Source of the DNA: an uncultured Pelagibacteraceae bacterium
Lineage (GTDB): Bacteria; Pseudomonadota; Alphaproteobacteria; Pelagibacterales; Pelagibacteraceae
DNA length: 47,500 nt
Assembly (NCBI GenBank): GCA_902558225.1
Contig: CACEDG010000006.1
Coordinates: 1-47,500 of the forward strand
Direction of reading: 5' to 3'
Numbering within the stretch: position 1 is the first letter of the stretch; each line of letters starts with the position of its first letter. The notes under the pieces were generated by a model, which searched no databases, was not told where the DNA came from, and saw only the letters and a list, made by a program, of their open reading frames with translations. The position numbers and the translations under genes were made by a program. Below, one piece after another: positions 7,763 through 36,349 of this stretch.

Positions 7763-7772
7763 TTAAATTTTT

Positions 7773-10030: not shown

Positions 10031-10034
10031 TTGT

Positions 10035-10967: not shown

Positions 10968-11719
10968 TTTTTTAATTGTAATTTTGTTTCATTATGAAAA
11001 TCGTAATTAGATAAATCTATCAGTTTTTTAATTTTTTTAATACATAATGTTTGTGACTTTATTTTTTTTTTTTCAATTATTTTTTTTGAAGAAATTAATT
11101 TTTCCCCAAAATAATATTTTATAATATCTTTAATTTTATAACCCTTTTGAGAACCAACATTAAATGTTCCGAATATCTCTTTTTTTTCAATCTTTTTTAT
11201 TATAGTAATCAAGCTTTTAATGCTTAAAAAGTCTCTTATGCTATTAGTGCTAATATCAAATTCAATTTTTTGTTTTTTAAAAAAGTTTTTATGCATCAAA
11301 CCAAGAAAAGTATTTTTATTTTGATTTTTAATTTCAAAAATATTTGAAAGCCTTAAAATCAAAATTTTTTCAATTTCTTTTTTAAATATTTTTTCAACCT
11401 CAAGTTTGTTATGAGCATAAAAGCTTTGAGGACAAGGACGAATTTTTTCATCACAATTAATAAGATTTGGATATACTTTGGATGTTGAAAAAAAAATTAG
11501 TCTTTGATTTGAAATTCTTTTTAATATTTTTTTTTCAAAAATAAAATTTTTTATTTTTTTTTTTTTATAAATTACAGGTGAGCTCAATAAAAAGATGTTT
11601 TTAAAATTATTAAAATTAATTTTATCAACTTCTTTATGTGATATGTATTTTCCACGAATTGATGGAGAAATTGATTTACAAATAAAGCTATTTTTTCCAA
11701 TAAACAAATTATTCATCAT
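10946..11719 (-). CDS. RmlD/epimerase-like SDR, degenerate nucleotide-binding motif
   Basis: A short (257 residue) extended-SDR relative. Recognisable parts are FFSTSKVYP around residue 80, Tyr101/Lys105 in YAHNKLEVEK, LRLSNIFE, and SIRDFLSIKSL with a C-terminal GTFNVGSQKGYKIKDI. The usual N-terminal GxxGxxG is reduced to 'FIGKNSFIC', so NAD(P) binding may be altered. Its gene lies directly upstream of the RmlB-like dehydratase gene and overlaps it by 22 nt, which suggests it acts on the 4-keto product as a reductase. An inactive or regulatory role is possible given the weak glycine motif. A 13-T run (11554-11566) lies inside the gene. Confidence 0.75.
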   Translation of the reverse strand: MMNNLFIGKNSFICKSISPSIRGKYISHKEVDKINFNNFKNIFLLSSPVIYKKKKIKNFIFEKKILKRISNQRLIFFSTSKVYPNLINCDEKIRPCPQSFYAHNKLEVEKIFKKEIEKILILRLSNIFEIKNQNKNTFLGLMHKNFFKKQKIEFDISTNSIRDFLSIKSLITIIKKIEKKEIFGTFNVGSQKGYKIKDIIKYYFGEKLISSKKIIEKKKIKSQTLCIKKIKKLIDLSNYDFHNETKLQLKKCKKYFS

Positions 11720-12716
11720 TTAATTTTTTTAAGAATTTTAATAATTTTTTATTTAACAAGCTATGTGTATAATTTCTTTTCCAATCTTGATAAAATCTAG
11801 ATCCTATTTCCTTAGATTTTTTTTTATTTTCAATTAGATATTTCAAACTCTCATACCAATCAATTGTATCATAGGCTAGATAACCATTAATGCCATTATT
11901 TATAAAGTTTGAAGAAGAAAATGTATAATCTGAAATTGTTGGAATTTTCAATTGAGCAAAAACCAAATGACGTCCTAGATTGGTAGTTTCTTTAAAAAAA
12001 ATTGAAAAAAAATATTTTTTTTTAAATAAATGTTCAGAGAAATAATAACTCAAGTTTTTTTTAATTTTTTTATCTTTTGAAGGAATTAACTGAGGAACAA
12101 TGCCTATATCTGTGTTCCACAAATATTTATCATAACAATTAAGATGATACTGTTTATGTGTTATTTTCAAATGAGTTTGTTTAGTCTTAAAAATGTTTAT
12201 TTTGCCCTTTCTTTTATAATCATATATTAGAATTAACTCAATTCGATGTTCGGTTGCTAATTTCTTAAAAGCATTTGTAATTCGTGGGTACATATTGGTT
12301 AAATGCTCACGATTACCATGATAAGCAATGACAGTTTTATTTTTGTTTTTTTTATTCCTTTTTAAATTTATTGATGGATAAACTGGGTAAATTAAAGTTG
12401 GTAAATTTGAAAAACTAAAAAAAATTTTTTCTTCAATACCATTTGCTATAATGAAATCGTATTTTAGAAAATCATCATAATTTCCAGCGCGTGGGTCTAC
12501 AACGCCATATAAAACACCCTTTTTTTTTATAAAATTGGAATTTTTTGTACCACTCATAAATAATATAACATCATAATCATTCTCCAAAATTTTTTGTTCA
12601 AATTTTTTAGCAGTAAATTTTATGTTTTTATTTTCTTTAACTAATTTTGTCAGTGATTCTTTATAAAACTTGAATGATGGTGAGTCTGGATTACTACAAC
12701 TTAATAATATTTTCAT
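11709..12716 (-). CDS. GT-B-like protein, probable glycosyltransferase
   Basis: I do not recognise a specific family. The 335-residue protein opens with a GT-B-like strand (MKILLSCSNPDSPS). It has DVILFMSGTKNSNF and GVVDPRAGNYDD in the N-terminal half, and 'KTVIAYHGNREHLTNMYPR' at the domain boundary. A donor-like C-terminal half contains NTDIGIVPQ, then RHLVFAQLKIPTISDYTFSS and NNGINGYLAYDT, equivalent to the 'G-x-N-G-x-L' end of GT4 proteins. No EX7E motif is present. Its ATG overlaps the stop of the upstream ABC gene (ATGA), tying it to flippase-linked glycan assembly. Function as a transferase is inferred. Confidence 0.65.
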   Translation of the reverse strand: MKILLSCSNPDSPSFKFYKESLTKLVKENKNIKFTAKKFEQKILENDYDVILFMSGTKNSNFIKKKGVLYGVVDPRAGNYDDFLKYDFIIANGIEEKIFFSFSNLPTLIYPVYPSINLKRNKKNKNKTVIAYHGNREHLTNMYPRITNAFKKLATEHRIELILIYDYKRKGKINIFKTKQTHLKITHKQYHLNCYDKYLWNTDIGIVPQLIPSKDKKIKKNLSYYFSEHLFKKKYFFSIFFKETTNLGRHLVFAQLKIPTISDYTFSSSNFINNGINGYLAYDTIDWYESLKYLIENKKKSKEIGSRFYQDWKRNYTHSLLNKKLLKFLKKLNDE

Positions 12717-14428
12717 TTTACCTTTAAATTGTTTAAATTAAGAATTGAATCACACACTCTTAAATTTTTTTTTTTGTGTGTGATCAGTATGATTGTTTTG
12801 TCTTTAATTTTAGAGATTAGGTTAATAATATTCGCCTCTGATTTAGAGTCTAGCGAGCTTGTAATTTCATCTAATATAAGTAAGTCTGTATCGTGATAAA
12901 GAGCTCTAGCTATTCCAATTCTTTGTTTTTGACCCCCTGAGATTTTAGAGCCCCTTTCGCCCATTCTTGATTTTAGTCCTTTTGGAAATTTCTTAATCAC
13001 ATCTATTAAATCAGCTTGTTTAATTACTTTACTTAAAAGTTTATAATTAATCTTATTATTTCCAGGAATGCATATATTATTTATTAATGTATCATCAAAC
13101 ATAAAAACTTCCTGTGGTACGTGAGACATTTTCAAATCATCAATATTACTTATCTTTTTTCCATTTTTATCAGTTAAAATGATTGATCCTTTTTTTGGTT
13201 TCAATAAACCTAAAAAAATATTTATCAAAGTAGTTTTACCTGATCCACTGTCTCCAATAATCCCAAATGTCTGATTTTTTTTTAATTTAATTGATAGGTT
13301 TTTAAAAATGTCTTTTTTATCATATTTAAAAAATAATTTATCAATATGAATGTTTTCAAAGTCTATTTTTTTTCTAAATTTTTGCTTTTTCTCGTTTTTT
13401 TGTAAAAATTTGTATAATTTATAAAATGATTTTAGAACTGGAAACATAAAACTCATTACATTTATTGCAACAATAATTCTGGTCATAGCTGGCATAATCC
13501 TAAATGATGCTATAGCAAACGCAGCCATAACTTTTATAATTTCATTTTTAAAATTCGTATCATCTACAGGTAATAAAAGTGAGATGATTATTATACCGAA
13601 GATTAAAAACAATTCTAATGCATTTCTTGGAATATGAGTTATAAATGAATTTTTGCTATTAGCCTCTGATGATTTTTTAATATTAAAATCAAATTTGTCA
13701 GAAAAGATTTTAGATTTATTAACAATTGCAAGTTCCTTTATTCCTGAAAATATTTGAGTTAACAAAAAGATTGAACTTTTATCATGTTTTTGTCTAATTA
13801 AACTTAACTTTGCAACATATTTTTTTAACCATTTAAAAATAAAGAATGCGGGCAATAAGATAAGAAAGAGAATAATTGTAATAAAAGGTTTATAAATTAA
13901 AAAGAATGTGATTATTCCTAATAAGACTGTTAATTCTGTTATAAAAATTAATAAACTGTTGCATCCCTGAGCTATGATATTAATTTCTTGTGTTAAATTG
14001 TGAATTATTTTTGATGAATTATTTGATATGTGAAAACTAAATGGTTGATTTATATAAAGTTGATTTATCCTAATGGCTAGATGACTTCTGACATTGAAAG
14101 CAAATGAAGAATTTCTCCAACTAAAAAATAGACTTACAATAACTTTTGTAAGATAAATGGCTCCAAAAAAAATCAGAAAGTAAATTATTAAAACTTTTAA
14201 ATCTAGGTCTCTAAATGATATATATATAAATCTAGCAAAATCAGTTTTCATAAACGGATTGGACTCTGATATATCTTCCTCAATCAAGAAACCAATAGCC
14301 GGAAAAATTAATGCCAACGAGAAAATCTCGAACAACATAACTGAAAAAGATCCAAATATATTGATATAGAAATCTTTTTTTAGTTTTTTATTAATTAAAT
14401 TAAAAAAGATCCTAAAATTACTAAACAT
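12713..14428 (-). CDS. ABC transporter, fused permease and ATPase (PglK/MsbA-like lipid-oligosaccharide flippase)
   Basis: The 571-residue half-transporter has an N-terminal membrane domain with about six helices (residues 20-330) and a C-terminal ATPase. Catalytic motifs are intact: Walker A GDSGSGKT (392-399), Q-loop VPQE (437-440), signature ISGGQKQR (496-503), Walker B LLILDE (516-521), and the switch His551 in LITHK. Length and layout fit PglK/WlaB-type enzymes that flip undecaprenyl-diphosphate oligosaccharides to the periplasm. No Wzx-type flippase is visible in the window, which supports this role. It starts with ATG directly beside the epimerase stop. A lipid or peptide exporter of the MsbA type is the alternative. 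Confidence 0.9.
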   Translation of the reverse strand: MFSNFRIFFNLINKKLKKDFYINIFGSFSVMLFEIFSLALIFPAIGFLIEEDISESNPFMKTDFARFIYISFRDLDLKVLIIYFLIFFGAIYLTKVIVSLFFSWRNSSFAFNVRSHLAIRINQLYINQPFSFHISNNSSKIIHNLTQEINIIAQGCNSLLIFITELTVLLGIITFFLIYKPFITIILFLILLPAFFIFKWLKKYVAKLSLIRQKHDKSSIFLLTQIFSGIKELAIVNKSKIFSDKFDFNIKKSSEANSKNSFITHIPRNALELFLIFGIIIISLLLPVDDTNFKNEIIKVMAAFAIASFRIMPAMTRIIVAINVMSFMFPVLKSFYKLYKFLQKNEKKQKFRKKIDFENIHIDKLFFKYDKKDIFKNLSIKLKKNQTFGIIGDSGSGKTTLINIFLGLLKPKKGSIILTDKNGKKISNIDDLKMSHVPQEVFMFDDTLINNICIPGNNKINYKLLSKVIKQADLIDVIKKFPKGLKSRMGERGSKISGGQKQRIGIARALYHDTDLLILDEITSSLDSKSEANIINLISKIKDKTIILITHKKKNLRVCDSILNLNNLKVK

Positions 14429-23270: not shown

Positions 23271-24500
23271 TTAGTTTATAGTCATAATACCTACATTTCT
23301 ATGCATACCACTGATATAGTCTATTAATATTTTTTTTCCATCATTTGACCACCTTGGATGAAGATCACACCTAATAACACCTCTGTATTTATAAGGACTA
23401 TAAATATATTTTTTCCAAATAATCTTTTTTTTTGTAATTGAGTATACAAATAACTTTTGAAATCCCAATAAATTTGGATACGTATCACTAACAAACAGAT
23501 CTTTATATTTTGGATTAAACATAGGATGTCCATCTTTATTTAGCTCTGAGTTTAAAGTCTTAAATTTATTTAGTTTAATATTATATAAAATATATGAGTA
23601 GCACTTATTATCTTCTTTCATTGTAAATAATATTTCTTCGTTATTTTTCCAACAGTAATGTGAGATCAGTTTTGATTTACTTAAATTAATTAAATAATTT
23701 TTTTTTTTCTTTAAACAATAATGATAAAATAGTATCTGACGTTGATTATTTTTTTTTAGAACTGTATAAAAATATGCAATTTTATCTCCATTTGGAGAAA
23801 ATGTCTGATGATTTATATAACAACCTATAACTAGTTTTTGTTTTGTCTCATTAAATTTAAACAATGTAATTTTTTTATTTTTTTTTTTATTAATCATTAT
23901 TTCAAGTTTACTTTTTCTTAAGTTGACGGATTTTTGTGATTGACCAGTTTTAAATCCATAGCCTTTTCTTAACTTTCCTATTTTTGTAAAATCCGCTATT
24001 AAAAAATACTTTCCATCAGGACTAACATTATAGATTGAAAAGTTTAGTTTCTTTATTTTCCTAGATCTTAAATCTATTTGTTTTGTTATGTAATTTCTAT
24101 TTTCCTTTTTGTTAAAAAAAATAATATTTTTTTTGGGGTGCCACTGTAAATTTGAGCCTAATTGCCAAGACCAAGCGCTAGTCTTATCTAAATTAAGAAT
24201 TTTTTTACTTTTTAAATCAATTAAATTAATTAAAACTTCTTTATTACTTTGTTTTAATAACTTTTTTGTGTTTTTGTATGAATGAACGGCTATTTTTGTG
24301 TCTTGAAAATTGAATGGTTTTTTATCGTGATATCCAAAAAAAAAGCTGTTTAATTCATTATTTGTTTTGAAAATAAAGATATCTCTATTGAAAAATTCTA
24401 AAATCCTTCCTAAAAGTCTAAATGATTGTCTGATAGTATTTTTTAACCAAAAAAATGAAACTTTATTATTTATTTCGTTTAAAGTAAGATTATTTTTCAC
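23271..24500 (-). CDS. Beta-propeller-like protein of unknown function (TolB/oligogalacturonate-lyase-like repeats)
   Basis: I do not recognise a precise family. The 409-residue protein contains repeats of the kind found in beta-propellers: WQLGSNLQWHPKKNIIFFN, IYNVSPDGKYFLIAD, HQTFSPNGDKIAYFYTV, SHYCWKNNEEILFTM, GHPMFNPKYKDLFVSD, and DLHPRWSNDGKKILIDYISG. The last is close to the C-terminal blade of TolB-like and oligogalacturonate-lyase-like propellers. No signal peptide is evident, so it is probably cytosolic. The start is GTG at 24500. It is the last gene of the phosphonate cassette strand and may bind or edit a glycan intermediate. Catalysis is unproven. Confidence 0.7.
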   Translation of the reverse strand: MKNNLTLNEINNKVSFFWLKNTIRQSFRLLGRILEFFNRDIFIFKTNNELNSFFFGYHDKKPFNFQDTKIAVHSYKNTKKLLKQSNKEVLINLIDLKSKKILNLDKTSAWSWQLGSNLQWHPKKNIIFFNKKENRNYITKQIDLRSRKIKKLNFSIYNVSPDGKYFLIADFTKIGKLRKGYGFKTGQSQKSVNLRKSKLEIMINKKKNKKITLFKFNETKQKLVIGCYINHQTFSPNGDKIAYFYTVLKKNNQRQILFYHYCLKKKKNYLINLSKSKLISHYCWKNNEEILFTMKEDNKCYSYILYNIKLNKFKTLNSELNKDGHPMFNPKYKDLFVSDTYPNLLGFQKLFVYSITKKKIIWKKYIYSPYKYRGVIRCDLHPRWSNDGKKILIDYISGMHRNVGIMTIN

Positions 24501-24528: not shown

Positions 24529-24768
24529 TTATTTTTCTTGGGTATTCGTATTATCTTTATTTTTTTCATCATCTTTATCATCTTTAATTTTATTTCTAAT
24601 ACCAAGAAATTCTAAAATTTTTATCCAATATATTTTAAGAGTTACAATTATGGCAGCTAAAGCAGCTATTAATCCCTGTAAAATTATGCTTACAGTTCCT
24701 GGGTCAATATAAGCAAATGCGTTAGTGCTATAAAACATTAAAAAAATTGATAAGATAATTTTTTTCAT
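24529..24768 (-). CDS. Small secreted or membrane-anchored protein with YIDPG motif
   Basis: From the ATG at 24768 the protein has 79 residues; an ATG at 24780 would add four. I prefer the inner start because AAGGA (24773-24777) sits at good Shine-Dalgarno distance. It begins KKIILSIFLMFYSTNAFA, a clear signal peptide, with YIDPGTVSIILQG just after the predicted cleavage. A hydrophobic helix (LIAALAAIIVTLKIYWI) and a very acidic/lysine-rich tail (DDKDDEKNKDNTN) follow. Small proteins with YIDPGT after a signal peptide occur in many glycan loci, but I know no biochemical role. It sits between the transaminase and propeller genes. Confidence 0.8.
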   Translation of the reverse strand: MKKIILSIFLMFYSTNAFAYIDPGTVSIILQGLIAALAAIIVTLKIYWIKILEFLGIRNKIKDDKDDEKNKDNTNTQEK

Positions 24769-24772
24769 AAAT

Positions 24773-24777
24773 TCCTT
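24773..24777 (-). promoter_or_regulatory. Shine-Dalgarno AAGGA deciding the start of the YIDPG protein
   Basis: On the minus strand AAGGA lies four bases before the ATG at 24768 (AAGGA-ATTT-ATG). In these A/T-rich genes such a clear ribosome binding site is unusual. It supports the inner start over the ATG at 24780, which it overlaps downstream. Confidence 0.55.
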
Positions 24778-24796
24778 CATCTATAACACTTTAATT

Positions 24797-25777
24797 TTAA
24801 ATTTTAATTGAATTAATTATTTTACCCCTAGCCTTTCTTTTCAAATGTACCTCACCCAAATGACAGACAATAGAGCCAGAAATATTTGCTCTACTCTGAT
24901 ACAAAATCACATTTTTGCTCTTTTTGATTACTTTTTTGTTTACATAAGTACAAAGATTAGGTTGTTCACTAATATTATACTCTAAATATTCCTTCATCTT
25001 CTTAAGGAAAATTTTTTTATTTATAGTTACTGCGTATTTAAAATCATTATAATTTTTTAAAACATCATACAGTGAACAAATTGAATGATATGGGCCTGTC
25101 ATTTTTTTTTCTAGATGATTATAAATATTCAAATTAAATTGATTAATTTCATTATTTGGATTTGAGTTAAAAGCTACAAAAGCTGCACCAGTTAATCCAA
25201 ATAATCCCTTACATGAACTATATCCTAATACATCGGCATATTCGTGATTTTTTTCTAAACCTATAGAAGCTGTTGCGTCTAACGCTAATTTAGATTTACA
25301 CCTTTTTTTTAATTCACTGAATTTTAAAATTGGAATTTTATAACCAATGCTTGTTTCGACAGGACATCCCATAATCCAATCATAATTTTTTGAAATATTA
25401 TCTATTTCTTGATAATTTATATAATCAATCTTTTTAATTTTTTTGTAATTATTACTGCTCGCAATAGACATAGATAAAAGTCTGTCAGAATAAGTGCCTG
25501 TTTTAATTATTAAAAGTTTCCCATAAATGAAATTATTTATCATTACTTCTAAGGCAAAACTTGCTGCTCCTTGCATTCTTGCAATATTCTTATGACTTGT
25601 TAATTTTTTTAATTTCTTGAGAACGTAATTTTCTAATTTTTGATATTGTTGATCTCCTCTTCCAAAACACGGTTCAATCGAAGAAATATTTTCAATCAAT
25701 AAACTTGCAGGCCCAGGTGTGAACAGTTTTTTTTTTGAATTTTTTATATATGTAAATTTTTTTAATGTATTAAGCAT
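24797..25777 (-). CDS. phnW: 2-aminoethylphosphonate:pyruvate transaminase-like class V aminotransferase
   Basis: The product is expected to interconvert phosphonoacetaldehyde and 2-aminoethylphosphonate. In the biosynthetic setting here it would make the amine. Visible marks are FTPGPASL (19-26), as in PhnW's 'TPGP', RMQGAASFALE (67-77) for cofactor phosphate, CPVETSIG (138-145), ALDATASIG (165-173) with Asp167, and the PLP-binding Lys190 in SSCKGLFG. A conserved-looking GPYHSICSLYD follows. At 326 residues it is shorter than PhnW (about 360-370), with a trimmed C-terminal domain, so the amino donor could differ. Its ATG follows the decarboxylase gene's stop without a gap. Confidence 0.88.
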   Translation of the reverse strand: MLNTLKKFTYIKNSKKKLFTPGPASLLIENISSIEPCFGRGDQQYQKLENYVLKKLKKLTSHKNIARMQGAASFALEVMINNFIYGKLLIIKTGTYSDRLLSMSIASSNNYKKIKKIDYINYQEIDNISKNYDWIMGCPVETSIGYKIPILKFSELKKRCKSKLALDATASIGLEKNHEYADVLGYSSCKGLFGLTGAAFVAFNSNPNNEINQFNLNIYNHLEKKMTGPYHSICSLYDVLKNYNDFKYAVTINKKIFLKKMKEYLEYNISEQPNLCTYVNKKVIKKSKNVILYQSRANISGSIVCHLGEVHLKRKARGKIINSIKI

Positions 25778-26887
25778 TTAATTAATTGACTCTAAAAAAT
25801 TTTTTTTTAATGCTAACATTTTTTCTTTAGGTCTAGAAATATTTTTTCTATGTCCTTTTTTAATTATTATCTCTATAAAACTATTTTTTTTACTCTTTAG
25901 GGAATTACCTATACATTGTAAAATACTTTTTTTATTTGTACACAAGTAAGTTTTATTATATCCAATTTCTTTTGAAAGTTTAAAAAATTTTACATGTTTT
26001 GCTGCGTTATCATGACCACCAACTGACTCATGGCTAAAATTATTAAAAACAATATGAATCAAATTTTTTTGTAACACACTTGTAGTTAAAGAACCAAGAT
26101 GCATTGTAATAGAACCATCACCATCAAAACAAAAAATCTTATTTTTTTTATTAATAGCTATTCCTTGAGCGACAGATATAGCATGTCCCATTCCTCCCAC
26201 ACACATAAAATTACGAATTTTAAGATTATTTTCTTTAATCAATTCATTGAGCTCTCTTGATAAGATTCCAGTTGTAGATATAACTATTGAGTCATTAGGT
26301 ATCTTTTTAACAATCAAGTTTAACACTTGCTCTCTTAGCATAAGTTTAGAGTTATTTTGTTTTTGATAATATTTATTTTCAAAAGTATTTTTTCTTACCA
26401 AAAGTGCCACTACTTCATTATTTTTTTTTGCTTTTAAACACAATTTTTTTATTATTTTTTTAAAATTACTTTTTTCATTAATAATATTGTATCTAATATT
26501 AAGATTTTTTAAGAGATTTTCTGTTATCATTCCTTGAGTTAAATGTTGTGGCTCATCTTTTAATTTCTTTTTTATCTCACCCCTCCAACCAATGATAAGA
26601 AATATCGGAATTTTATATACTTTTTTATCCGCCAGAGATATCAGTGGGTTTATTGCATTTCCAAGACCGGAGTTTTGCATATACACAATTGGAATTTTTT
26701 TACTTGATAGGTGATATCCTATTCCAATTGCAACTGCGGAGCCCTCATTCGCAGCTATTATATTTTTTTTTTTAAAATTTCTCTCAAACCCATAACATAA
26801 ATTTTTAAATAACGAGTCTGGAACACCTGTTGAAAAATTTAAATTATTTTTTTTTAATTCATTAATAAATTTTTGAATTTTTATCAT
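25778..26887 (-). CDS. aepY: Phosphonopyruvate decarboxylase (ThDP-dependent)
   Basis: This cytosolic enzyme drives phosphonate synthesis by irreversibly decarboxylating phosphonopyruvate to phosphonoacetaldehyde. The N-terminus STGVPDSLFKNL (19-30) and EGSAVAIGIGYHL with Glu48 (the ThDP-activating residue) match the family. MQNSGLGNAINPL (70-82) and the lid-like DEPQHLTQGM (111-120) also match. The C-terminal ThDP motif runs from GDG (256-258) to NN (282-283), then SHESVGGH. Length 369 agrees with Ppd/AepY/Fom2 proteins. It lies between the PEP mutase and transaminase genes with only a few bases of spacing, which makes the assignment strong. Confidence 0.94.
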   Translation of the reverse strand: MIKIQKFINELKKNNLNFSTGVPDSLFKNLCYGFERNFKKKNIIAANEGSAVAIGIGYHLSSKKIPIVYMQNSGLGNAINPLISLADKKVYKIPIFLIIGWRGEIKKKLKDEPQHLTQGMITENLLKNLNIRYNIINEKSNFKKIIKKLCLKAKKNNEVVALLVRKNTFENKYYQKQNNSKLMLREQVLNLIVKKIPNDSIVISTTGILSRELNELIKENNLKIRNFMCVGGMGHAISVAQGIAINKKNKIFCFDGDGSITMHLGSLTTSVLQKNLIHIVFNNFSHESVGGHDNAAKHVKFFKLSKEIGYNKTYLCTNKKSILQCIGNSLKSKKNSFIEIIIKKGHRKNISRPKEKMLALKKNFLESIN

Positions 26888-26891
26888 TTAT

Positions 26892-28196
26892 TTATTTTGT
26901 TCCTGGAATCAATTTTAGGATATCTTTAATACTCATTATAGTTTTTTCAGACTCATAAGATCTACCATATTTGAGTATATCTAAAGCTGTTTTTCTCATA
27001 GCTGGATATGATGCCCTTAACATTTGATTTGCATATATGACTATATTAAATCCAGCATTTTTAAGTTGATTTTCTCTAACGGTATTATAACTCGATGGAA
27101 CCGCTACAAGCGGTATATCAGAATATTTCTTTTTAAATTTTTCTGCGAACATAAGAATTTTATTAGGAGACTTATCCTTGCTATGAATCATTATTCCATC
27201 TGAACCAGCTTCCACATATTTTTGTGCTCTTAAAATTGCATCTTTTAAAGGTTTACCTAAAATTAAACTTTCTATTCTTGCTATTATCATCAATTTATTA
27301 TTTGTTGCTTTTTTGCTTGCTAATATTTTTTTATAAAATTCTTTAACATTCTCCTGTTCTTGCTTCACTTCATTACCAAATAAAGAATTTTTTTTTAAAC
27401 CTTTTTTATCTTCCATAATCACTGCTGAAATACCAGATCTTTCTAATGTTTTAAGATTTATTTCTAAATGCTCAATTTTACCTCCAGTATCAATATCCAT
27501 TATTAAGGGTTTAGTTGTAACATCAAAAATATCGTTTATATTTGAAAGTCTTTGATTTACATCCAATATTTCAATATCTGGTTTACCTTTTAAGGTAGCG
27601 TCTGTTAATGAGCTAGACCAAAATCCATCAAATTCAAATTTTTTACCTCGTCTATCATTATAAAAAGTTTTTTCTGCTATAATTGCTGACAACGGACTAT
27701 GAGCTTCGATAAATCGACTTAGACTTTTTGCTTTAAGTAATCTTTTTAAAATCATTTGTCTATTTGATGGTGTTGTCGCCTCCTGATGTATTCTTTCCTT
27801 TAATGCAAAACTAGAAACATCTTTTGTATATGGTACTTCAATTAATTTTCCTTTGACTTTTTTTAAAGATTTTAAAGCATAATTTCTGAATTTTCTTTCA
27901 CTCCCAAATTTCCAATCATCTCCATGAACCAAGTAATCAGGTTTTAATTTCAATATATTTCTTGAGCAATCCCAATCATTTTGTTCTACTACCTTAAATA
28001 TTCCATTTATATTCTGTAATATTTTTTTTCTTTGATTATAATTTAGTAACGGAAGTCTTTTTTGGCTCGCTATTGCATTATCGGTTAATAAACCCACAAT
28101 TACATTTCCATATTTTTTAGCTTGTTGGATTAAATTAATATGTCCATGATGCAATAAATCTATTGATAAAGTTATATATACAGTTTTATTTTTCAT
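26892..28196 (-). CDS. pepM: Phosphoenolpyruvate mutase fused to an N-terminal cytidylyltransferase
   Basis: PEP mutase makes phosphonopyruvate and is the entry step of nearly all phosphonate pathways. Residues 1-140 form a TagD-type nucleotidyltransferase: TLSIDLLHHGHINLI with HHGH at 16-19, LLTDNAI, QRKKIL, and HGDDWKFGSERKF. Residues about 155-434 are the mutase: SGISAVIMEDKKGLKKNS contains the diagnostic EDK-X5-NS motif at 262-271, preceded by DGFWSSSLTDA (190-200) and MDIDTGGKIEH (233-243). The C-terminus includes the DGIMIHSKD and VAVPSSYNT segments. The start overlaps the upstream cytidylyltransferase gene's stop by 11 nt. The fusion predicts that the phosphonate is handed on as a CMP ester. 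Confidence 0.94.
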   Translation of the reverse strand: MKNKTVYITLSIDLLHHGHINLIQQAKKYGNVIVGLLTDNAIASQKRLPLLNYNQRKKILQNINGIFKVVEQNDWDCSRNILKLKPDYLVHGDDWKFGSERKFRNYALKSLKKVKGKLIEVPYTKDVSSFALKERIHQEATTPSNRQMILKRLLKAKSLSRFIEAHSPLSAIIAEKTFYNDRRGKKFEFDGFWSSSLTDATLKGKPDIEILDVNQRLSNINDIFDVTTKPLIMDIDTGGKIEHLEINLKTLERSGISAVIMEDKKGLKKNSLFGNEVKQEQENVKEFYKKILASKKATNNKLMIIARIESLILGKPLKDAILRAQKYVEAGSDGIMIHSKDKSPNKILMFAEKFKKKYSDIPLVAVPSSYNTVRENQLKNAGFNIVIYANQMLRASYPAMRKTALDILKYGRSYESEKTIMSIKDILKLIPGTK

Positions 28197-28584
28197 AATT
28201 ATTTAGAAATATTTTTGCAGCTTTTTTTCTTATCATTGTGCTACTTATAGATTTAGTTCGATTGAAATTTATTGATTTTGTTTTAAATTTCCTTTTTTTA
28301 TAATCACTACCACTTATCAGAATATCTATTTTATGTTTATCTAAAAATTTTTGTTTAATTATAAAGTCTGAAGGAATGACTTTTTTAACTCCTTTAATTT
28401 CTAATAAAATTTCTTTTCTAAATTTAAACTTTAACTCTGGTGTATAACCTTTGTATTTTTTTATGTTTTTATCTGTAGATAATGCAATGATTAAATCACC
28501 ATATTTTCTTGCTTTTTTTATTAACCTTATATGTCCGTGATGAATTAAAGTCACAGACATATCTATCATTATTTTTTTTTTCAT
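28186..28584 (-). CDS. TagD-like cytidylyltransferase
   Basis: This stand-alone 132-residue nucleotidyltransferase belongs to the glycerol-3-phosphate/ethanolamine-phosphate cytidylyltransferase superfamily. Marks are VTLIHHGHIRLI with HHGH at 15-18, ALSTDKN (34-40), KFRKEIL, and the C-terminal RTKSISSTMIR, matching the 'RTxGISTT' nucleotide-binding loop. It likely makes CDP-glycerol or a CMP ester of a phosphonate such as 2-aminoethylphosphonate. Its sequence is like the N-terminal part of the adjacent PEP mutase protein (HHGHI-x-LI-x-x-A-x-KYG in both), so the two are probably related by duplication. It overlaps the next gene by 11 nt. Confidence 0.88.
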   Translation of the reverse strand: MKKKIMIDMSVTLIHHGHIRLIKKARKYGDLIIALSTDKNIKKYKGYTPELKFKFRKEILLEIKGVKKVIPSDFIIKQKFLDKHKIDILISGSDYKKRKFKTKSINFNRTKSISSTMIRKKAAKIFLNNYEK

Positions 28585-28603
28585 CTTAAGTGGTATGTAA
28601 TCT

Positions 28604-28631
28604 GTTATACTTATTTTTAATCTTTAATCAA
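28604..28631 (-). promoter_or_regulatory. Candidate sigma-70-type promoter for the phosphonate genes
   Basis: In the 74-base gap upstream of the cytidylyltransferase gene the minus strand reads TTGATT (28631-28626), a 16-base spacer, then TATAAC (28609-28604). These match the -35 and -10 consensus at four and five of six positions. The start of transcription would be about a dozen bases before the ATG. In DNA this A/T-rich, such matches are expected by chance fairly often, so it is only a candidate. Confidence 0.35.
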
Positions 28632-28658
28632 AGTTTATTGATTTAGTAGACAAATTAC

Positions 28659-29798
28659 TTAATCCTTAACTAAAATTTGATTTTCTAAAATAGTTTCAAA
28701 TCTCTCAATTGTTTTTCCAAAGTTAAAAAAAGAATTTTGTTTAAGACTATTCAATTGTGGAATTTTTAAATTGAAATTTTGAATTGATTTTTCAACCAAC
28801 TGGTCAATATTTTTAATTTCATTTTTCGAAAAAAAAGTTCCAAATTCATTTTTAAATTTTTGCTCAATAGGAACGAATTTTTTATAATCATTATAGTCTT
28901 CATTGTGAATTTTATCTATTCCCTCCAAAAAAAGCACTGGCCTATTTAATATTAACATATATTCTAAATATATGCCTGAGTTATCAGTAATAAGGCATTT
29001 TGCCTTTTGCATTGATTTTAGACTTTCGCTATTATCATCAAATCTAAAAGTTTTAAGAGAATTAAATTTTGCTTTAATATATTTCAAAGTTTCGGAGGAC
29101 CTTTTAAAATGTTCTGGATGAGGCCTAAATGATACATTATACCCTTTTTTTAATAATTCATTAATTATTTCACTACAATTTTCATTAATAAAATTTTTAT
29201 ATTTATATGTCCATGACGGTGCAAATAGTATTTCATTAGCATCTTGTTTAAAATCAATATTTTTTAAAATATAATCAAAATATAGATATCCACTTAATAT
29301 TAATTTTTTTTTCTTAATTCTTTTTTGATTTTCTCTAAATTGAATTTCATTTTTTTGAAATTGCCCATTGCATAAGATGATATCATAATTATCAAATGCT
29401 TTTTTAGTGTAACCTTTAAAAGTACTACCAGCAGCATGAAAATAATATATATATTTTTTTACATTTTTATTTTTCTTTATATGATGGTTGTCCAAATCTG
29501 TGAGTGTTAAGAAAAAATATTCAGCTTTAACGATTAAAAAGAATATTCTCATTAATAGACCGTTTCCAATAAATAAATTACATATATTTGAAATATTAAT
29601 TTTATCATCTATATCAGAACTTACATAATAAACTTGATTAGGGTATTTTTTTATTAATATTTCAATTATTGGAAAACTGTACTTTTGATAAAATCTACTT
29701 TCTGAATAAAAAATAAATTTAATTTTTTTATCTGCTAAGATAAAAATATTTCTTAATATTGAGAAATTAGATTTAATTTTTGCAATTAGTTTAAACAT
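28659..29798 (-). CDS. CDP-glycerol glycerophosphotransferase-like (TagB/TagF family) transferase
   Basis: The 379-residue protein resembles the GT-B polyol-phosphate transferases that use CDP-activated alcohols. Evidence includes YFHAAGSTFKGYTKKAFDNY with DIILCNGQFQ near residue 145, FAPSWTYKYKNF after the linker, VSFRPHPEHFKRS in the donor half, and CLITDNSGIYLEYMLILNRP, matching the 'TDYSS...' plus Arg-Pro motif of TagF. It is the first gene of the phosphonate strand, upstream of two cytidylyltransferase domains. The natural inference is transfer of a CMP-activated phosphonate (or glycerol phosphate) onto the glycan. No membrane segment is obvious beyond a hydrophobic stretch near residue 80. 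Confidence 0.82.
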   Translation of the reverse strand: MFKLIAKIKSNFSILRNIFILADKKIKFIFYSESRFYQKYSFPIIEILIKKYPNQVYYVSSDIDDKINISNICNLFIGNGLLMRIFFLIVKAEYFFLTLTDLDNHHIKKNKNVKKYIYYFHAAGSTFKGYTKKAFDNYDIILCNGQFQKNEIQFRENQKRIKKKKLILSGYLYFDYILKNIDFKQDANEILFAPSWTYKYKNFINENCSEIINELLKKGYNVSFRPHPEHFKRSSETLKYIKAKFNSLKTFRFDDNSESLKSMQKAKCLITDNSGIYLEYMLILNRPVLFLEGIDKIHNEDYNDYKKFVPIEQKFKNEFGTFFSKNEIKNIDQLVEKSIQNFNLKIPQLNSLKQNSFFNFGKTIERFETILENQILVKD

Positions 29799-29903: not shown

Positions 29904-31628
29904 ATGAAACTTAGGAATTTACCTCAAACAATACTAGATCTTAATATTTGTGCATTATTCGGTATGACAAGTATGTTTGCTTTAAAAAATATACTTCCTA
30001 AAGGGTATACAACAGAATTTTTTGATAGAGGATATATATTGATAGGACTAACATTAATTGGCTTATTTGTATTATTTTTATCTTTAAGAAAAAAAATTGA
30101 AATAAAAAAGAAATTTCAACTCCCAGACTCAAAAGATATCATTCTACTTTCCTTACCAATGTCACCCGTAATCACTTTTATACTACTCAACATTGAGTAT
30201 CTTAATCTAATAGGTTTTATTTACGTTTTTTTTATACCTTTTATTTTTTGTGTTTTTTTTACTTTAATTCTACCTTCTCTATTTAGTTATTTTGGATCAT
30301 ATAAAATGCTGATGATTTCTGGGTTGGCAATTTCTTATACAACTCTAAATATGGCTCAAATAACAAATAACCCAACAACACATATATTCGATAGTCAGTT
30401 TATTACTCAAGGATTTTACTTAATTGGATCATTTGTGATCACCTATATTTTATATTCATTTAATAAAAAGGTAACTTACGTACTATTTATTACATTTATG
30501 ATAAGTGGAGTTTTTTTAAATTTTTTTAATAATTCTTCTCACAAGGATTTAGATAAAATAAGATCTTCTGATAGATTAAAATTATTTTTAGATAAAGATA
30601 TAAATACTATAATTCATAAAAAAGATATTTATATATTAATATTTGAGTCTTATTCAAATTTAGAAACTCTTCAAAATTATGGCTATGAAAATAAAAAACA
30701 GTTGAACTTTTTAGAAGATAATAATTTTACAGTTTACCAAGGAATTTATTCAAAAGGATCAACATCGTTAGCCTCTACCTCAAGAATTTTAGAGTTAAAA
30801 AATAATTTTTCGAGAGATGAGCGTCATTATTTGAATGGAAATGCATTTATATTAGATGCCCTAAAAGCTAACGGATATAAAACTATAGGCTTGTTTAAAT
30901 CTCCCTACGCCTTTGGTTCATCGCCTATTAGATGGGATGAGTATTATCCAAAAGACGATGTAACTAAAATAGGGGGTAAGACTATATTGAAAGCTATCTA
31001 TGAGGGTTATTTTAGATTTGACATTTTCAGTGACGATTATGACTCAGATACGTATTTAAAATTAAGAAGTAAATATTTAAGTACTCAAAACAAGCAGTCA
31101 ACACTATTTTATACCCACGGCGAATATCCTGGACATTCACAAAATTCTGGAAAATGTCTTAAGAAAGAAAAAGAAAAACATTTTCAAGGAATGAAAAAAG
31201 CTAATAATCAAATGAGAGAGGACGTAAAAATTTTAAAAAAAAATAATCCAAACGCTATAATAGTAATAGTTGGAGATCATGGTCCGTATTTAACAAAAAA
31301 TTGTACAGCATTAAAAAAATATAAAAAAAAAGAAATTAATAGACTCGATATTCAAGATAGGTATGGAGCTTTTTTGGCAATTCACTGGCCAAAAAATTTA
31401 CAAACAAATTCATACAATATTCAAATAATACAAGATATTTTTCCTGCGATCTTAGGTAATATAACTAGTAATAAAAAACTTTTCGATGAGTTAAAACTAG
31501 ATAGAGAGTCTTTGTATGATTACAAAGAGAGAATAGCAGGTGTTAACGTATCAAACGGTATAATTGTTGGGGGAGAAGATGATAAAAAACCACTTTTTAA
31601 TAATAGATCTTATATATTAAATGAATAA
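29904..31628 (+). CDS. Membrane sulfatase/LTA-synthase-fold enzyme (phosphoglycerol or phosphoethanolamine transferase-like)
   Basis: The 574-residue protein has about five to six N-terminal membrane helices (residues 15-205) and an extracytoplasmic alkaline-phosphatase-fold domain. In that domain DIYILIFESYSN (241-252) provides the metal-ligand Glu248, YSKGSTSLASTSRIL (282-296) is the nucleophile region, THGEYPGH (404-411) gives His residues, and VIVGDHGPYL (454-463) gives Asp458/His459. This order matches LtaS/OpgB/EptA-like transferases, which move phosphoglycerol or phosphoethanolamine from a phospholipid to a glycan. Being divergent to the phosphonate cassette, it might handle a phosphono head group, but that is an inference. 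Confidence 0.85.
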   Translation: MKLRNLPQTILDLNICALFGMTSMFALKNILPKGYTTEFFDRGYILIGLTLIGLFVLFLSLRKKIEIKKKFQLPDSKDIILLSLPMSPVITFILLNIEYLNLIGFIYVFFIPFIFCVFFTLILPSLFSYFGSYKMLMISGLAISYTTLNMAQITNNPTTHIFDSQFITQGFYLIGSFVITYILYSFNKKVTYVLFITFMISGVFLNFFNNSSHKDLDKIRSSDRLKLFLDKDINTIIHKKDIYILIFESYSNLETLQNYGYENKKQLNFLEDNNFTVYQGIYSKGSTSLASTSRILELKNNFSRDERHYLNGNAFILDALKANGYKTIGLFKSPYAFGSSPIRWDEYYPKDDVTKIGGKTILKAIYEGYFRFDIFSDDYDSDTYLKLRSKYLSTQNKQSTLFYTHGEYPGHSQNSGKCLKKEKEKHFQGMKKANNQMREDVKILKKNNPNAIIVIVGDHGPYLTKNCTALKKYKKKEINRLDIQDRYGAFLAIHWPKNLQTNSYNIQIIQDIFPAILGNITSNKKLFDELKLDRESLYDYKERIAGVNVSNGIIVGGEDDKKPLFNNRSYILNE

Positions 31629-33995: not shown

Positions 33996-34886
33996 ATGAA
34001 CTTTTATGAAAAAATCATATTAATCTTAAAGCAGCCTGGTGTTTTAATAAGGTATAGGTCTTTGCAAATAAGAAAAATTTACTTCTATTTATCAAAATAT
34101 CTTCATTTAAAAACTTTTTTTACAAGAAAAAGAAAAATTGATTACAAAAGTAATTTACACTTATATGGTTTTGAAAAGATTGAAATAGAAACACTTATTA
34201 AAAATGATTTGAATATTGGATCTATGATATCTGAACTCGAAGAAAAAATAAAAAATTTTAATTATTTAAATAAAAATAGTCATATTGAAACATTCGACAT
34301 TCCAGATATATTTGATACAGATTCAAAAGTTTTCAATTTTTTGACAAGTAAATATTTAATTGACTTAGTTTCAAAATATTTAGGATGTATTCCTTTATTA
34401 ACTTATTCGAGTATTTGGTATTCAAATAATCAAAAAATTTTTGAAAATAGTTCACAAGAATATCATTTAGATCATGAGGATTATATGCAAGTAAAAGGGT
34501 TTTTATACCTTGAAGATATTGATGAGAAAAACGGGGCTATGAATTTATTCTCAAAAGAGTACAGCAAAAGAGTTGTTAGAGAAATTAATTACAAAACTTC
34601 TCCAGAAAGAAAAAGGGTGGAAGATGGACTTTTCTCTAAATATGAAAATGAAAAAATTGTGTGCAAAGGAAAAAAAGGCACTTTATATCTAGTTGATACA
34701 AGTAAATGCTTTCATTGTGGAGCAAGAAAATCTCTAGATTCTAGATTATTGTTAACTTTTCAATTTATTACACCTTGGGCAAATTATTTAGAATGGAATT
34801 GGAAAAATAGTGAAATAATAAAAAAAAACAATTGGAAAATTAAAGAATTAAATAATATTCAAAAAAAAGTCATTGGCATAAAATGA
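33996..34886 (+). CDS. Phytanoyl-CoA dioxygenase (PhyH)-family Fe(II)/2-oxoglutarate oxygenase
   Basis: The 296-residue protein shows the double-stranded beta-helix pattern. The metal-binding HxD is His157/Asp159 in YHLDHEDY, VKGFLYLEDIDEKNGAMNLF follows, GKKGTLYLVDTSKCFH gives the distal His240, and Arg250 in DSRLLLTFQF would bind 2-oxoglutarate. All four expected ligands are therefore present. It is the last gene of region D, 47 bases after the GNAT gene. The simplest idea is hydroxylation of the carrier-bound acid or of the finished decoration. A phosphonate substrate is possible because PhyH-like enzymes such as PhnY act on phosphonates, but that is speculative. Confidence 0.85.
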   Translation: MNFYEKIILILKQPGVLIRYRSLQIRKIYFYLSKYLHLKTFFTRKRKIDYKSNLHLYGFEKIEIETLIKNDLNIGSMISELEEKIKNFNYLNKNSHIETFDIPDIFDTDSKVFNFLTSKYLIDLVSKYLGCIPLLTYSSIWYSNNQKIFENSSQEYHLDHEDYMQVKGFLYLEDIDEKNGAMNLFSKEYSKRVVREINYKTSPERKRVEDGLFSKYENEKIVCKGKKGTLYLVDTSKCFHCGARKSLDSRLLLTFQFITPWANYLEWNWKNSEIIKKNNWKIKELNNIQKKVIGIK

Positions 34887-34915: not shown

Positions 34916-36349
34916 TTAAATTAATTTTTTAACAATTGATAAGATTTTTTTTGAATATAAAACTTTAGGTATATTATAAAAAAAATTTATTTCTTTATCT
35001 AGGTTTCTATCTATCTCAAGATATTTTTTTTTAGAATACATATTTCTAAATTCCTTAATAACAGAATTAATACTTTTTGATTTTATCAATGCAGAAACTT
35101 TATCAATTTTTTCAAAATGTAAATTCACATCAAATAAAGTTTTTGGATCCGTTATGCTATCTTTTTCTTCATAACATAAAAAAATTTGCCTTTTCTTAAA
35201 TATCAATGACTCAATCGTAACAGTAGTTAAACCACCAATATTAAAAAGGGAATTTGATAAAAGCTTTTCAAAATAATTATTATTATTATCTAAATATTTA
35301 TTGTTTTTAGTTTTAACGTAATTTTTCATGTTAGGATCTAAAATTATTTTATCAAACAAATCAATTTTTTTTACGTGTGAAAATATATTTGGTCTTGATG
35401 GATGAGGCCTATAAACGATTTTTAAATCTTTATATAATTCTGGTTTGTTATTAATTTCATCATTAAGTAATTTAAGAACTTTGATGTCATCAAATAATTC
35501 CACTAATCCAAAAAATAGGACATATTTATGTTTAAAGATACTTTTTAATTTCTTTTTTCTTAATAAAAAGTAATTATCAAATTTTGGATTACCAGTATAA
35601 AAAATTTTCTTTTTATCTAAATTTTGTATTTTAATTGCATGATTTTTAGATTGTTTTCCCCAAATCCCTAGAAAATCTGGCTTATTAAAGAATACCGTCT
35701 TACATGAAATATTATCCCAATTGTCAACTAAGAAAAAAGTTTTTGCTCCAAAATTTGAAGCTATTTTAGGTATCATAAACGTTTCAGGCTCATAACAATG
35801 TGTTGTATAAATTATTAGATCTGGTCTTATTTTTTTTACCACTCTTTGAATATCTGTGTTGAGTTCTAAATTGGACAATATCATTTTTTTATATAAGCTA
35901 AATATTATTTTATTCGTCAAAATAAGAATGGCTAATCTTCTAAAGAAAGGTTTGCAAAAATATTTCAATATTGTTCTCAATAAAAAGAAATTTGAATAAT
36001 TACCAAACCTATCTCTCTCAATTGTTTTTTCAATTTTAATAAAATCCATTAAATTTGGATACCATCTTCTAAAATTATATATAAAAGTTTTAGATAACTT
36101 TTTATTAATAATTAAAAAAAGATGTAATGTTTTTATAAAGAAAGCATGATCTTTATCGTCTAAAGAATAGAAGTATTTGTTTTTTATTCCTCGTGTCGAA
36201 ATTTTTTTTTTTGTTATTAATTTATTTTGCCATTTATTCTTATTCAATAAAAATGAAACTTGATAATTTTTTTGCAAATCTTTGAATGCATTATTCTCAA
36301 TGTATTTATTATAATATTTTGAAGGTAAACAAATAAGTATTTTTTTCAT
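34916..36349 (-). CDS. GT-B-like surface carbohydrate protein with RPHPS motif
   Basis: The 477-residue protein has no family I can name. It has a long basic N-terminal region with DLIIYTTHCYEPETFMIPK and FFLVDNWDNISCKTVF near residues 180-220. A GT-B-type C-terminal half starts at FYTGNPKFDNYFLL and contains YVLFFGLVELFDD, LKIVYRPHPSRPNIF and SLFNIGGLTTVTIESLIF. The His-Pro and Ser/Thr-Glu pair is the arrangement seen in CDP-polyol and CMP-ulosonate transferases. It is the last gene of the 34916-38938 minus unit that contains a NeuB-like synthase, so it may transfer that sugar. The role is inferred. Confidence 0.65.
   Translation of the reverse strand: MKKILICLPSKYYNKYIENNAFKDLQKNYQVSFLLNKNKWQNKLITKKKISTRGIKNKYFYSLDDKDHAFFIKTLHLFLIINKKLSKTFIYNFRRWYPNLMDFIKIEKTIERDRFGNYSNFFLLRTILKYFCKPFFRRLAILILTNKIIFSLYKKMILSNLELNTDIQRVVKKIRPDLIIYTTHCYEPETFMIPKIASNFGAKTFFLVDNWDNISCKTVFFNKPDFLGIWGKQSKNHAIKIQNLDKKKIFYTGNPKFDNYFLLRKKKLKSIFKHKYVLFFGLVELFDDIKVLKLLNDEINNKPELYKDLKIVYRPHPSRPNIFSHVKKIDLFDKIILDPNMKNYVKTKNNKYLDNNNNYFEKLLSNSLFNIGGLTTVTIESLIFKKRQIFLCYEEKDSITDPKTLFDVNLHFEKIDKVSALIKSKSINSVIKEFRNMYSKKKYLEIDRNLDKEINFFYNIPKVLYSKKILSIVKKLI

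Follow-up and report, generated by a model that had tools for sequence, protein, structure and literature searches.

A lone cytidylyltransferase paired with a divergent aminotransferase, a putative 2-aminoethylphosphonate-charging module in a Pelagibacteraceae surface-glycan island

The window analysed here is a 47,500 nt stretch of DNA from an uncultured Pelagibacteraceae bacterium (contig CACEDG010000006.1, nt 1–47500, of assembly GCA_902558225.1, which is 871 kb long and 74% complete). On its minus strand, at nt 24797–29798, lies a run of genes that would represent a phosphonyl-tailoring cassette inside a surface-glycan island, and all five genes named there by a first-pass annotation were recovered (listed below). 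The reading considered probable is that the cassette makes 2-aminoethylphosphonate (AEP), that a small standalone cytidylyltransferase, CyT2, charges it with cytidine triphosphate (CTP) to its cytidine monophosphate (CMP) ester, CMP-AEP, and that a transferase of the TagF type moves the AEP to a glycan. The strongest of the new claims is that CyT2 charges AEP, which is well supported by inference from sequence comparison; transfer by the TagF-like enzyme, for which predicted fold and gene linkage argue, is a reasonable second claim, and a weaker one.

nt 28659–29798, minus strand: TagF-fold (GT-B) transferase, proposed phosphonate transferase (379 aa; fold model, no sequence-family match)
nt 28186–28584, minus strand: CyT2, a lone PF01467 cytidylyltransferase, proposed CTP:AEP cytidylyltransferase (132 aa; PF01467 49.7 bits; HHGH and RTKSISST motifs; paired with or fused to AEPT)
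nt 26892–28196, minus strand: Fom1-type cytidylyltransferase domain (about residues 1–138) fused to phosphoenolpyruvate (PEP) mutase (about residues 150–433) (434 aa; TIGR02320, match to 5x3d, EDKKGLKKNS)
nt 25778–26887, minus strand: phosphonopyruvate decarboxylase (TIGR03297 370.2 bits, cut-off 312.5)
nt 24797–25777, minus strand: AEPT, a divergent class V aminotransferase, proposed AEP transaminase (326 aa; predicted fold, K190/D167)

The first two enzymes of the proposed pathway stand as first annotated, both scoring above their family cut-offs. The PEP mutase (TIGR02320 376.9 bits, cut-off 319.55) carries the EDK(X)5NS motif as EDKKGLKKNS, and the decarboxylase gene adjoins it at a gap of 4 bases. 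Judging from these families, the former would produce phosphonopyruvate and the latter phosphonoacetaldehyde. AEPT would then aminate phosphonoacetaldehyde to AEP (from fold, motif and neighbours), CyT2 would combine AEP with CTP to give CMP-AEP (from gene fusion, lineage and co-occurrence), and the TagF-like enzyme would use the CMP-phosphonate as TagF uses CDP-glycerol, placing AEP on a glycan hydroxyl and releasing CMP. The domain fused to the PEP mutase, of Fom1 type but without the usual partner dehydrogenase in the cassette, may be redundant, have a structural role or act as a second enzyme on AEP.

Co-occurrence of CyT2 with AEPT

AEPT (TRANSAMINASE) gave no Pfam match at E 0.001, and scored far below the cut-offs of the PhnW/AEP transaminase families TIGR03301, TIGR02326 and NF010006 (50.3, 44.8 and 50.9 bits against 360.8, 400.8 and 296). 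Its earlier description as a PhnW-like transaminase holds for the predicted fold, but not for the sequence family. When the AEPT profile was compared with the sequences of solved structures, AEP transaminase 7e7g was the top match (E 4.1e-18), and a Foldseek search with the predicted structure (pLDDT 96.3) ranked 7e7g first, followed by the PntC-AEPT fusion. By VIA-align, 7e7g had a Z of 31.2 (rmsd 2.5, 302 residues aligned), the top row reached 31.9, and class V aminotransferases tie. K190 and D167, which align as what we take to be the lysine and aspartate that bind pyridoxal phosphate, are invariant across 26 diverse rows. The fold alone leaves the substrate unfixed; it is because of the neighbouring genes that AEP transaminase is the likely activity. 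Pelagibacteraceae single-cell genomes and metagenome-assembled genomes (MAGs) supply the nearest relatives of AEPT in the genome collection, the best being 76% identical.

Among 297 Pelagibacterales genomes, 26 contain the fusion-type PEP mutase at E 1e-40 or better, and the surroundings of all 26 pepM loci were read as far as the contigs reach. AEPT is present at seven of these, each of which also has CyT2, while 16 have an iron-type alcohol dehydrogenase (Fe-ADH) instead of AEPT and none of them has CyT2 (Fisher, 4.1e-6 for 7/7 versus 0/16). The other three have neither AEPT nor Fe-ADH: L155, where the decarboxylase was not seen either, L160, and L166, whose contig stops there. By genome, CyT2 reaches at least 177 bits in 8 of the 297, namely the seven AEPT genomes and G285, and the next score is 97.6 bits (Fisher, 7.9e-12 for CyT2 with AEPT, own genome excluded). 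G093, which has a weak AEPT match (41 bits, 30% identity) and no CyT2 at 177 bits or more, was not counted as AEPT-bearing. Two of the Fe-ADHs were scanned against the phosphonate-linked family TIGR03405 and gave 108 and 91 bits (cut-off 423.7). No Fe-ADH occurs among the open reading frames (ORFs) of the window cassette, and the best one in its genome lies outside the cassette (131.4 bits against the cut-off of 423.7; 64 bits by the cassette profile, where cassette members score at least 256).

The pairing extends well beyond this order. A scan with the AEPT alignment across one genome per species (84,980 species) returned 72 loci, a floor value as the scan is blind to relatives lacking both of two short peptide patterns; six of the 72 are the same contigs as L032–L037, and to that extent the two data sets overlap. 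The hosts include Pelagibacteraceae, SAR116, SAR86, Rhodobacterales, Methylophilus, Methylotenera, Methyloglobulus, Thiotrichaceae, Vulcanococcus, Omnitrophota, Kiritimatiellae, Balneolaceae, Flavobacteriaceae, Dehalococcoidia and Obscuribacter; many of the loci come from MAGs, taken as binned. The AEPT-CyT2 pair occurs in many unrelated bacteria, some of them easily grown. A match to the fused cytidylyltransferase-PEP mutase was found at 62 of the 72 loci (at only 47–56 bits in L110, L112, L113 and L123, and in several as contig-edge fragments), the decarboxylase at 58 and a CyT2 ORF at 55; AEPT itself, though found by tblastn, was not called as an ORF at three (L073, L077, L104). At nine more loci (L103, L110–L114, L116, L119, L123) the AEPT protein begins with a CyT2 domain (seven of these fusions were read as sequences, and all nine are in the alignment), which brings the loci with CyT2, alone or fused, to 64 of 72.

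In a tree of cytidylyltransferases (119 rows, 148 columns), where many forks are unresolved and the branch to TagD is very long, a split with SH-aLRT 100 separates the full set of 63 CyT2 rows, standalone and AEPT-fused together, from the PEP-mutase-fused domains, Fom1, TagD and the small cytidylyltransferases adjacent to Fe-ADH. Of the 55 fused domains in the motif count given below, 28 entered the tree, which excluded L077 (a CyT2 match in a 351-aa ORF, also left out of the motif count) and L098 (cut by the contig end). As judged from these comparisons, the lone CyT2 tracks the AEP transaminase in occurrence, lineage and gene fusion, and the fused domain is Fom1-like and common to the Fe-ADH-type loci.

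Several observations pull the other way. The CyT2 of G285 (L167, nt 9500–9901) is a lone copy surrounded by other genes, with neither AEPT nor PEP mutase in its vicinity, and CyT2 was not found at 8 of the 72 AEPT loci (L071, L101, L104–L108, L122), of which L104–L108 are Rhodobacterales and L101 starts at a contig edge. The 72 loci were baited with AEPT, and CyT2 outside them was counted only in Pelagibacterales, where the Fisher values overstate the association because the genomes counted are related. The nine CyT2-AEPT fusions may be one event spread between lineages, since all nine group together on the tree (88). Finally, Bacteroides-type AEP producers manage with a fused domain alone.

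The TagF-like transferase and the acceptor

The product of nt 28659–29798 has no NCBIfam match and no Pfam match at E 0.001, hence none to PF04464. A profile of its family, compared with the sequences of solved structures, gave a best E of 0.16 and no TagF, and a fold search was used instead. The first-pass annotation had called the protein a CDP-glycerol-type transferase and suggested a structural comparison with TagF; in that comparison the model (pLDDT 90.3), surely of GT-B fold, retrieved TagF at Foldseek ranks 1–9 (E 1.6e-12 to 5.5e-11; TM-score by query 0.57–0.60). VIA-align gave Z 19.2 for TagF (rmsd 5.1, 331 aligned) and Z 19.7 for TarL with CDP-ribitol (rmsd 5.5, 327 aligned). Two histidines, H121 and H227, are invariant in 12 TagF-like relatives (an alignment of 12 out of 14 rows, L047 and L048 excluded) and stand 106 residues apart, compared with 104 for H444 and H548 of TagF (from the titles of mutant structures), which are presumably its catalytic histidines. 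It is because of the Foldseek order and these similarly spaced histidines that the protein is likened to TagF, and we infer, by analogy, that a CMP-phosphonate is its donor.

The closest relatives of this protein (E 2e-39 or better) occur in 8 of the 297 genomes, six of which, the own genome counted, also have a PEP mutase; in the remaining two the gene is at a contig start. Since the other five genomes with pepM all carry Fe-ADH-type loci, the idea that the TagF-like gene is specific to AEP was dropped, and the enzyme appears linked to phosphonate loci rather than to AEP alone. Its assignment as the AEP transferase is further weakened by the weaker relatives, found in 11 genomes of which none has a fusion-type PEP mutase, and by UDP-GlcNAc 2-epimerases, which reach Z 20.5 by VIA-align and so equal or exceed TagF.

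It is possible, although less probable than the main reading, that CMP-AEP is made but that a LicD-type, LtaS-like or other glycan enzyme transfers the AEP, the TagF-like protein serving in glycan synthesis, epimerisation or the like. The epimerase scores fit this, as does the TagF-like profile being matched at only 10 of the 72 AEPT loci. LicD-family genes lie near CyT2 at 4 of the 72 (e.g. L036, nt 6598; L037, nt 11396–12100, Pfam LicD 65.5 bits) and their products are candidate alternative transferases, while an LtaS-like gene flanks the TagF-like gene both in the window and in L038, where the counterpart is 49% identical. Opposed to this are the Foldseek ranking with TagF first, the six of eight genomes in which close TagF-like relatives accompany pepM, and the occurrence of a true PF04464 protein after CyT2 in Methylophilaceae. 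No LicD ORF was noticed on reading the window, for which a scan of the whole window for LicD was not run. Transfer by the TagF-like enzyme is kept as the preferred assignment, and CMP activation followed by glycan attachment, as first annotated, is still the best reading, with the TagF fold speaking for it and a CMP-phosphonate as the proposed donor.

In Methylophilus the cassette lies directly between a flagellin gene and that of a TPR/GT41 protein (L076, from Methylophilus methylotrophus ATCC 53528, nt 6197–13481; also L084, L085, L087, L088, L095, L100 and L121). The gene order in L076 and L095 is flagellin, fused cytidylyltransferase-PEP mutase, decarboxylase, AEPT, CyT2, methyltransferase, PF04464 transferase and TPR protein, the last being more than 2400 aa long and running off the stretch read. 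Pfam matches confirmed flagellin (L087), FliD and FliS (both L088), the methyltransferase and the PF04464 protein (both L076) and, within the large L088 protein, GT41 and methyltransferase domains. The PF04464 protein, encoded two genes after CyT2 in Methylophilaceae, scores 29.6 bits (cut-off 22.1), and an alignment of its Methylophilus profile with the TagF-like family spans 166 columns at a probability of 95.4. Flagellin lies within five genes of the cassette in ten loci: two of the three from Methylotenera (L067 and L069, both read) and eight of the nine from Methylophilus, where the remaining one (L118) is on a short contig. This gene order suggests that phosphonate is placed on flagellin in Methylophilus. 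To our knowledge SAR11 cells have no flagella, and the acceptor in the window must therefore differ.

Substrates of the two cytidylyltransferases

Both cytidylyltransferase domains of the first-pass annotation are PF01467 domains, encoded by neighbouring genes, one fused to the PEP mutase and one standing alone as CyT2. The fused domain (nt 27777–28196) matches Fom1 (5x3d, E 4.7e-37, residues 2–134). For CyT2, PF01467 was the only match at E 0.001, with none to PF12804. Of 64 CyT2 rows, 63 retain both the HxGH and the TxxISS motif, and the other is truncated at a contig end; for the fused domain, retention of both is 39 of 55 in the AEPT set and 16 of 19 in the comparison loci. Motif loss is the only feature in which the fused domains of the two sets differ, and the comparison loci lose motifs too (3/19). 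Divergence rates lent no support to relaxed constraint on the fused domain at AEPT loci, the ratio of cytidylyltransferase to PEP mutase divergence being 1.25 at AEPT loci and 1.20 at comparison loci.

CyT2 is fused to AEPT in L110 and L123, whose PEP mutase lacks a cytidylyltransferase domain, and L097 and L099 retain CyT2 but have lost both motifs of the fused domain. Three loci (L053, L055, L068) hold both branches, that is AEPT with CyT2, and Fe-ADH with a small cytidylyltransferase which is nearer to the PEP-mutase-fused kind than to CyT2. Because of the lineage split, the motif retention, the fusions and these dual-branch loci, the evidence points to one charging enzyme per branch, with CyT2 acting on AEP; the pattern of the Fe-ADH branch fits Fom1-like charging of hydroxyethylphosphonate. 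The roles of both domains had been left open in the first-pass annotation, and the comparison now separates CyT2, for AEP, from the Fom1-like fused domain.

It is unlikely that the fused domain charges AEP and that the substrate of CyT2 is a phosphonate formed from AEP further along the pathway, for instance by hydroxylation or methylation. The retention of both motifs in 39 of the 55 AEPT-type rows, including that of the window, would allow this, and suitable genes recur near the cassettes: methyltransferases at 23 of 91 loci, and PhnY-like 2-oxoglutarate oxygenases at 16 of 91 (e.g. L032, nt 8803–9555, NF052437 183.2 bits, cut-off 500), the latter suggesting hydroxylated AEP in some strains. 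However, CyT2 persists where the PEP mutase lacks the domain (L110, L123) or its motifs (L097, L099), and its fusion partner is AEPT itself, not a later enzyme.

Still less likely is that CyT2 is a glycerol-3-phosphate cytidylyltransferase which, with the TagF-like enzyme, makes a glycerol-phosphate glycan merely beside the phosphonate genes. The best NCBIfam match of CyT2 is indeed to that enzyme (TIGR01518), its nearest solved structure is 1coz (E 1.3e-12), with the ethanolamine-phosphate enzyme 3elb and Fom1 5x3d close behind, and a TagF fold is encoded next door, all of which fits this alternative. The TIGR01518 score, however, is 56.4 bits, far below the cut-off of 165.4, CyT2 is fused to the AEP transaminase at 9 of 72 loci, and seven of the eight Pelagibacterales genomes with CyT2 are the AEPT genomes. 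That AEP goes to a phosphonolipid or a secreted small molecule is equally improbable, for although CMP activation also occurs in antibiotic pathways (Fom1, FrbH, PhpF; in the consulted text of PMC6697681), the cassette sits amid glycosyltransferase-, NeuA/B/C- and Wzy-like genes and itself holds a TagF-fold protein.

Neighbouring genes and known systems

The cassette is surrounded by many genes that read as glycosyltransferase-, epimerase-, NeuA/B/C- and Wzy-like. The run extends past AEPT into two further genes absent from the first-pass annotation, and the gaps from the TagF-like gene to the last of these are 74, -11, 4, 0, 16 and 28 bases.

nt 24529–24780, minus strand: putative small membrane protein with a YIDPG motif (83 aa; gap of 16 bases to AEPT)
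nt 23271–24500, minus strand: PD40 protein, last gene of the run (PF07676 24.9 bits, cut-off 20.9)
nt 29904–31628, plus strand: divergent neighbour, reads as LtaS/sulfatase-like, link to the cassette uncertain (PF00884 21.6 bits, under the cut-off of 25)

Over 50 aa the 83-aa protein shows 38% identity to the N-terminus of a membrane protein of L046 that is 556 aa long, and it looks like a detached piece of this protein. Elsewhere in the window, nt 33996–34886 reads by eye as a PhyH-type oxygenase (HxD and H motifs; no Pfam match at E 0.001), and nt 34916–36349 as a second TagF-like protein (no Pfam match at E 0.01). Promoter-like sites (50, mean 54.4 in shuffles) and terminator-like sites (1, against 1.3) were not enriched over shuffled sequence and were therefore not used to place operon boundaries. 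The earlier remark that no C-P lyase or phosphonatase gene is visible holds for the assembly at its 74% completeness: PhnJ had no match, and phosphonatase gave 36.9 bits (cut-off 220), a match of a kind seen in 14 of 14 control genomes too, with PhnZ, PhnA and PalA outside the search. Phosphonate producers mostly lack catabolic genes, according to the consulted text of Acker 2022 (PMC8931226).

APS-kinase-like proteins (after adenosine 5'-phosphosulfate) recur close to SAR11 phosphonate cassettes, whether of the AEP or the Fe-ADH type, lying no more than five genes away at 18 of 91 loci (e.g. L033, nt 6429–6941, PF01583 67.2 bits; L035, nt 8148–8681). At such loci a 3'-kinase for CMP-phosphonates is possible, and Campylobacter offers a parallel in an APS-kinase-like enzyme that acts on CDP-phosphoramidate. 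For the window this step was dropped, as reading its ORFs, without a dedicated scan, turned up no APS-kinase-like protein.

Of the known systems, the closest is the Pnt pathway, as given in the consulted text of Rice 2019 (PMC6697681). It likewise comprises PEP mutase, decarboxylase, AEP transaminase and a cytidylyltransferase, the last fused to the transaminase in relatives, and its nucleotidyltransferase is fused to or near the PEP mutase, where the window has one fused and one adjacent. Clusters in which one nucleotidyltransferase is fused and another separate are mentioned in the same text, and PntC with the PntC-AEPT fusion of Treponema denticola (PDB 6pd1, 6pd2) is a precedent. PntC, however, an enzyme that forms CMP-AEP with a preference for AEP, is a PF12804 (LicC-like) protein whereas CyT2 belongs to PF01467, the window transaminase is of a much shorter, divergent family, and a TagF-fold protein takes the place of LicD, for which the cassette has no match. 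The cassette appears to work like a phosphonyl-tailoring pathway, but with CyT2 outside the PntC family. Fom1 of fosfomycin synthesis (5x3d) shares the PF01467 domain N-terminal to PEP mutase, and charges hydroxyethylphosphonate (PMC6697681, consulted text); in the window a transaminase replaces the dehydrogenase, and a second, unlike cytidylyltransferase is added. With the TagF/TarL wall teichoic acid polymerases, the 28659 product shares the GT-B fold over its whole length and a like spacing of histidines, but it has no PF04464 match and its proposed donor is a CMP-phosphonate.

In the SAR11 and Prochlorococcus clusters of Acker 2022 (PMC8931226), pepM similarly lies beside glycan-assembly genes in SAR11 isolates; pepM is put at 18% of SAR11 cells, and SAR11 is thought a leading marine phosphonate source. 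Pelagibacterales make up 87% of alphaproteobacterial producers in one marine survey set (PMC9381506, consulted text). Phosphonate production by SAR11, surface glycans as its target and SAR11 pepM clusters are already published, as far as the consulted text of PMC8931226 goes, and so are the cassette as such, cytidylyltransferases joined to PEP mutase or encoded close to it, and clusters that hold two cytidylyltransferases; the main text of Acker 2022, in the parts consulted, makes no mention of cytidylyl- or nucleotidyltransferases. A literature search that took in few subscription journals and no supplements found no report of a PF01467 AEP cytidylyltransferase paired or fused with a divergent AEPT, nor of flagellin-linked phosphonate genes of the Methylophilus kind, and earlier description of either is possible.

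PEP-mutase-family proteins with ESK(X)5NS in place of EDK(X)5NS are encoded in L110 (nt 8359–9591) and L123 (nt 8326–9612), sharing these loci with the decarboxylase and the CyT2-AEPT fusion, and surveys that require the EDK motif would miss PEP mutases of this type.

A broader and rather speculative proposal is that AEPT-CyT2 is a separately evolved, cross-phylum AEP-charging module that predicts AEP over hydroxyethylphosphonate, that TagF-type enzymes are its transferases, that methylotroph flagellin is decorated by it, and that in some SAR11 an APS-kinase-like protein would yield a 3'-phosphorylated donor resembling 3'-phosphoadenosine 5'-phosphosulfate. With the cassette of cultured Methylophilus, placed beside flagellin and a GT41 protein, chemistry, transferase and acceptor can all be put to the test without SAR11 cultures. 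A gene pair that separates AEP producers from hydroxyethylphosphonate producers would allow genomes and metagenomes to be read for the type of phosphonate made.

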